DNA of 64,000 bases, taken from Denitrovibrio acetiphilus DSM 12809. Lineage in GTDB: Bacteria; Chrysiogenota; Deferribacteres; Deferribacterales; Geovibrionaceae. Within the stretch, counting starts at the first letter, position 1. Each line of letters begins with the position of its first letter. The position numbers and the translations under genes are program-made. The notes under the pieces were generated by a model. It was not told the DNA's origin. It worked only from the letters and a program-made list of their open reading frames with translations, and ran no database searches. Below are positions 34,711 to 36,908 of this stretch, one piece after another. The stretch is taken from assembly GCF_000025725.1 (NCBI RefSeq), contig NC_013943.1, positions 2,976,001 through 3,040,000 of the forward strand, in the 5' to 3' direction.

Positions 34711-36390
<1,680 letters not shown>

Positions 36391-36406: not shown

Positions 36407-36700
36407 TTACGCTTCGATGATACCGAGGATGTCATCTTCTCTCATGATGAGGTATTCCTCGCCGTCAAACTTAACTTCTGTACCTGCATATTTTGCAAAA
36501 AGAACTTTATCGCCGGGTTTAACAGTCGGCTCAACTCTTGTGCCGTTGTCAAATACTTTCCCCTGTCCTACAGCGATAATTTCGCCTTCGAATGGTTTTT
36601 CTTTTGCGCTGTCAGGGATGATGATACCTGAAGCAGTCTTCTCTTCTGACTCGAAACGCTTAACAATGATTCTGTCCTGTAAAGGTTTGATAGATGCCAT
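36407..36700 (-). CDS. groS: Co-chaperonin GroES (10 kDa)
   Basis: GroES caps the GroEL ring. The 97-residue product has [20 protein letters not shown] with the mobile loop, [11 protein letters not shown], and [16 protein letters not shown]. It is preceded by AGGAGG, a CIRCE operator and an unusual repeat in the leader. Confidence 0.98.
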
Positions 36701-36741
36701 TGTCTTTCCTCCTAGTACTTGTTTATTTCATTTTATTAATT

Positions 36742-36821
36742 GTCATCCTGAGCTATAAGCGAAGGATCCAAAACCCCAGCCAAACTGTAGACAATTGATT
36801 CTTCCCTGTGTTCAGTATGAC
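36742..36821. repeat. Palindromic intergenic repeat (REP-like) in the groESL leader
   Basis: The 80-bp stretch begins GTCATCCTGAGC...GCGAAGGATC and ends with the inverted, diverged copy GATTCTTCC...GTTCAGTATGAC. The arms agree at most positions, so the whole could fold into one long hairpin. The GTCATCCTGAGC...GCGAAGGATC pattern resembles dispersed intergenic repeats of many bacteria. It lies between the CIRCE site and groES, so it should be transcribed. Confidence 0.7.
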
Positions 36822-36870: not shown

Positions 36871-36877
36871 CAGTGTT

Positions 36878-36908
36878 ATTATATATCTATTCAGAGGGGA
36901 AAAATCAA
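36878..36908 (-). promoter_or_regulatory. Predicted sigma-70 promoter of groES-groEL
   Basis: On the minus strand TTGATT (36908-36903) precedes TATATA (17-base spacing) or TATAAT (19-base spacing), directly upstream of CIRCE. Confidence 0.6.

Follow-up and report, generated by a model that had tools for sequence, protein, structure and literature searches.

The window analyzed here is the whole 64,000-nucleotide stretch of the Denitrovibrio acetiphilus DSM 12809 genome (NC_013943.1, positions 2,976,001 to 3,040,000), and all coordinates refer to it. It contains groES and groEL, and between the CIRCE operator and the groES start codon lies a real 80-bp palindromic element (Table 1), as a first-pass annotation of the sequence had placed it. 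Read along the groES strand, the putative promoter comes first, followed by CIRCE, the element, the Shine-Dalgarno sequence, and the groES ATG; 41 nt separate the end of the element from the ATG. CIRCE is the HrcA operator of heat-shock control. The putative promoter is not listed by a consensus promoter scan; six aligned leaders share its ATTTTT and TATATAT blocks without variation. From this arrangement the element very probably lies inside the groESL leader, and its presence in the transcript is implied by the putative promoter and the position of CIRCE.

Table 1. The groESL locus and the parts of the palindromic element, in window coordinates
Feature	Position	Strand	Basis
groEL	34711..36363	-	ORF; NCBIfam TIGR02348
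groES	36407..36700	-	ORF; NCBIfam GroES
groES Shine-Dalgarno, AGGAGG	36708..36713	-	sequence; leader fold
Palindromic element, 80 bp	36742..36821		
Outer arm, GTCATCCTGAGC	36742..36753		
Left REP half with TGTC tag; half-hairpin intact, carrying the tandem G.A/A.G mismatch	36742..36768	+	held-out covariance model, 38.4 bits, E 8.6e-07; sequence
28-bp spacer between halves	36769..36796	.	sequence
Right REP half, AGTC-tagged, decayed, two stem pairs lost	36797..36821	-	held-out covariance model, 20.4 bits, E 0.013; alignment shows broken pairs
Outer arm, GTTCAGTATGAC	36810..36821		
CIRCE operator, TTAGCACTC-N9-GAGTGCTAA	36844..36870	-	sequence; exact pattern match
Putative groESL promoter, TTGATT (36908-36903) and TATAAT (36883-36878)	36878..36908	-	read by eye; predicted start near 36871

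The position and inverted arms are also as first annotated, and the arms are Watson-Crick complementary at 10 of the 12 outer positions. The element is made up of a 27-bp and a 25-bp hairpin repeat, both small, which flank the spacer in opposite orientation with their GTC ends facing outward. The half-repeat pattern is GTCATNCTGARC-loop-GYGAAGN'ATC, in which covarying stem pairs flank a nearly invariant tandem G.A/A.G mismatch. The first stem pairs, AT...AT, are present in both window halves.

The outer arms alone are unremarkable: with 12-nt arms and spans from 56 to 109, 149 placements in the window reach 10/12. A general repeat search of the window did not return the element, and an Rfam scan of the window found tRNAs only. 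It is family identity, not the outer arms, that sets the element apart from chance. A covariance model trained on 52 half-repeats from other genomes, both window halves being excluded, has the left and right halves as its two best matches in the window, which upholds the REP-like assignment of the first-pass annotation. On these sequence features the element fits the TGTC/CGTC-tagged REP super-family as a head-to-head dimer, a REPIN-like doublet (REPIN is the existing term for REP doublets). This kind of repeat is already known; the element is a further, solitary member in an unusual place.

The unit of the family is the small half-hairpin. Covariation was examined in 54 distinct halves (52 from G001, G002, G005, G008, and G042, and the two from the window). 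At seven pairs, 99.2% of cells are paired compared with 86.7% after shuffling, and there are 51 double-change cells compared with 13.7. The first pair is AU in 54/54 halves, and the second is UA in 47 and CG in 7. These halves were extracted with GA fixed, so the mismatch was assessed separately with the GA positions left free: GA/GA is kept in 106 of the 115 listed rows of G000, G002, G005, G006, and G008, and two Watson-Crick pairs replace it in none. When the inner strand was left free in 129 cross-phylum dimers, 221 of 258 halves could be framed, including 184 with GA/GA and 29 with GA/TC. PyGAPu tandem GA is stable in DNA. The GA/TC halves are a perfectly paired sub-class (for example, GTCATGCTGAACTTGTTTCAGCATC) that coexists with the tandem-GA class across phyla.

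The variable position is paired within the half in 183/192 cases, and the two halves of a dimer share the same base there in only 57/96, so pairing is maintained more within halves than across the dimer. The 80-bp length of the element falls in the 56-86 range of the 129 cross-phylum dimers. The base before GTC in their 258 outer flanks is T in 181, C in 58, G in 14, and A in 5 (T or C in 239); the A of the right half, thus present in 5/258, occurs yet in 16 of 72 halves of related genomes. Beyond the stem, the tail is GGAT-CCA in the left half and GAAT-CAA in the right half. Relatives mostly have CTC, and the super-family tail is short, unpaired, and CCA-like.

The D. acetiphilus genome contains no second copy by BLASTN, by strict pattern, or by covariance model R1 applied to the best 150 of 2,448 candidates. 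A third covariance match in this genome (19.9 bits) was rejected; it is weak and overlaps an open reading frame. The element had been described as resembling a dispersed repeat, which fails within its own genome and holds for the family, which is dispersed in other genomes. Genome-wide counts with the held-out model scored the best 150 of about 2,300-2,450 first-look candidates. On that scale, matches with an E-value of at most 0.1 occur in 9 of the 21 genomes, with 1 half in G000, 2 in G001, 22 in G002, at least 148 in G005, 38 in G006, 83 in G008, 1 in G010, 5 in G018, and 1 in G020; among the best 150 candidates of the other 12, none matches at E 0.1. Within one genus (g3), the best 150 candidates include 0 halves in G004, 38 in G006, and 83 in G008. 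In another (g4), they include 0 in G007, G009, and G011, 1 in G010, and about 148 in G005.

The strict pattern finds halves in 20/59 genomes and long-spaced dimers in 4/59, with many further halves that have a degenerate partner. Dimers with GTC outside, as in the window element, occur in G006, G008, and G042. A scan of named genomes returned at least 120 stretches; among the records listed are Bacteroidota, Omnitrophota, Acidobacteria, Verrucomicrobia, Chloroflexi, Clostridia, and several proteobacterial groups. Because the repeat is multi-copy in relatives but a single dimer here, we file the element as a solitary relic and not as an active repeat of its own genome. G005 has a unit of about 214 bp that contains the repeat and occurs three times in tandem (G005:C4:213759-214451). 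One pair of homologous genes (70-74% identity) flanks repeats in both G008 and G002, an arrangement that may be ancestral or mark a hotspot.

We found groES matches in 43 genomes (its own and 42 relatives) and read 30 loci, those of D. acetiphilus and 29 relatives. From CIRCE to the ATG there are 170 nt in D. acetiphilus; the two congeners each have 80 nt, and the 29 relatives range from 51 to 98 nt. Comparison with leaders free of the repeat had been suggested at the outset, and such leaders exist: the repeat is in 0 of the 29 relatives' groES leaders read. The D. acetiphilus leader is about 90 nt longer than those of the two congeners, and the element makes up 80 of these. The MAFFT alignment of the empty site (six leaders) is not clean, so CIRCE and the ATG are the only anchors for the insertion site. 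Given 170 nt here and 51-98 nt without the repeat in the relatives, insertion in the D. acetiphilus lineage is the simplest reading, and we infer insertion here instead of loss elsewhere.

We consider it quite probable that the element is a lone REP dimer in decay that entered the groESL leader downstream of CIRCE and is near-neutral there. Two TGTC/CGTC-class REP hairpins, joined head to head, would have inserted between CIRCE and the groESL Shine-Dalgarno sequence in the D. acetiphilus lineage. The half-hairpin may be recognized as single-stranded DNA through its GTC tag and tandem G.A/A.G mismatch, and an enzyme would spread the half-hairpins of the family. One half of the D. acetiphilus copy appears to be decaying. 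In mRNA, the element would lengthen the leader by 80 nt on the downstream side of the HrcA operator and leave the ribosome-binding site as accessible as before.

The mobilizing enzyme may not be a Y1 transposase. The D. acetiphilus genome has one Y1_Tnp gene, and no GTCAT repeat was closer than 1.5 kb to any of the 30 Y1 loci fetched, this gene included; the RAYT link that the first-pass annotation had proposed checking is therefore not seen in its own genome. The copy-rich relatives G005, G006, G008, and G023 have no Y1 transposase match. An IS110-type transposase was considered as partner and none was found in the D. acetiphilus genome, G005, G006, G008, or G023. One of 30 PF02371 loci fetched (39 matches listed) has GTCATNCTGA nearby, with no REP stem. 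A search for a protein common to repeat flanks in G005, G008, and G002 that might be a mobilizer gave only homologues. The lack of a Y1 link agrees with the available text of Di Nocera et al. (2013), in which no transposase is linked to CGTC repeats and the mover of CGTC-type REPs is left as a question (PMC3733652).

A wider reading, which we put forward only tentatively and would not favor as it stands, is a pan-phylum class of single-stranded-DNA REP hairpins with a GTC tag and tandem sheared G.A/A.G. Such a class would reach about 150 halves in some species and none in congeners, would be moved by a mobilizer other than Y1 (RAYT), and would have D. acetiphilus as a lone survivor in the groESL leader. 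The copy-rich and copy-free congeners (0-83 halves in one genus and 0 to about 148 in the other, best 150 candidates scored), with no Y1 match in the copy-rich ones, are a clean comparative set for a mobilizer search.

The element was earlier expected to form a long leader hairpin in groES mRNA. This was a strand error, corrected here, as the strong long hairpin is on the + strand. There the element folds at -23.2 kcal/mol (z -4.5, 0/200 shuffles as good), compared with -20.2 kcal/mol on the groES-sense strand (z -1.2, 28/200 shuffles as good). The predicted pair probability of the long stem is 0.99 in + strand context. In the groES-sense leader at 25-45 °C it is 0.26-0.32, with 0.40-0.55 for the left half-hairpin and 0 for the right. 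A T-run follows the element on the + strand, where no transcript is expected, and no terminator-like U-run follows it in the groES sense.

The predicted unpaired probability of the Shine-Dalgarno sequence at 37 °C is 0.39 with the element and 0.40 without. Between 15 and 50 °C, it is 0.32-0.55 with the element and 0.36-0.50 without, with no switch, so the heat-dependent translation suggested earlier is unsupported. An RNA thermometer, in which the element would hide the Shine-Dalgarno sequence when cool and free it when warm, is not what these models predict. Predicted AUG accessibility at 37 °C is 0.47 with the element compared with 0.66 without; this modest drop is the only effect that the models predict for the element. 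We find no good evidence for chaperonin regulation by the element, and near-neutrality appears most likely because predicted access to the ribosome-binding site is unchanged.

It is unlikely that the insert was retained for altering groESL mRNA stability or for uncoupling the CIRCE hairpin from translation. A position in a probable leader downstream of CIRCE is uncommon for this family: of 51 repeat units in G001, G002, G005, and G008, only 5 lie between divergent genes, with 26 between same-direction genes, 16 between convergent genes, and 4 inside ORFs (crude ORF calls, fetched copies only). The left half-hairpin is intact, and its predicted pair probability in the 37 °C leader is about 0.5, but the right half has decayed, the mRNA-strand fold is no better than shuffles, no Shine-Dalgarno effect is predicted, and all 29 relatives' leaders read lack the element. 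A leader structure that evolved in place as a thermometer or attenuator, with repeat resemblance only, is very improbable: the strong + strand hairpin and the leader position would suit it, but only the non-mRNA strand gives a significant fold, the U-run is absent in the groES sense, and both halves match the repeat family of other genomes.

A DDE-type MITE moved by the transposase of an insertion sequence is just as improbable. In its favor, the element is short, palindromic, and intergenic, and a transposase-like gene present in 13 places in the D. acetiphilus genome has in each a 17/18-nt BLASTN match to the left half, which we rejected as a copy at its chance-level E-value. Against it, the structure is built on half-hairpins and not on terminal inverted repeats, the flanks (...AATT / TTTTT...) show no target-site duplication (direct repeat of at least 3 bp), and around Y1 and IS110-type genes no intact insertion sequence was seen to end in the repeat.

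The element appears to have little import for groESL and looks like a tolerated leader insertion. REP biology gains more from the surroundings of the finding than groESL does. A literature search on the exact sequence gave no title on a bacterial repeat among the matches listed. Searches on groESL with REP, dRS3/CGTC, RAYT, and tandem GA gave nothing on this repeat family beyond the available text of PMC3733652.

The family resembles the GTAG REPs with RAYT (E. coli REP/TnpA-REP) in having a tagged imperfect palindrome, a conserved stem mismatch region, and doublets, as the available text of PMC8266576 describes them, but its tag differs, and no dedicated Y1 transposase flanked by the repeat was found within 1.5 kb at the 30 Y1 loci. 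The closer likeness is to the CGTC-tagged REP super-family, which includes Neisseria dRS3 and Rickettsia RPE-4/RPE-6 (PMC3733652). By its text description, that super-family has a GTC tag mostly after T or C, a stem that starts with A-T and then T-A, a small loop, tags-outside (HH) dimers with frequent heterodimers, and no linked transposase gene, all as in the family of the element. The element itself has the A-T/T-A first stem pairs, the small loop, and the HH dimer with tags outside; members of the super-family are multi-copy in their genomes, and D. acetiphilus has a single dimer. Deferribacterota is not among the five CGTC phyla in the available text of that paper, in which repeats with more than one stem mismatch were dropped unless they were dimer partners (PMC3733652). 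Compared with the super-family as described there, the nearly invariant tandem G.A/A.G mismatch is a feature of the class found here.
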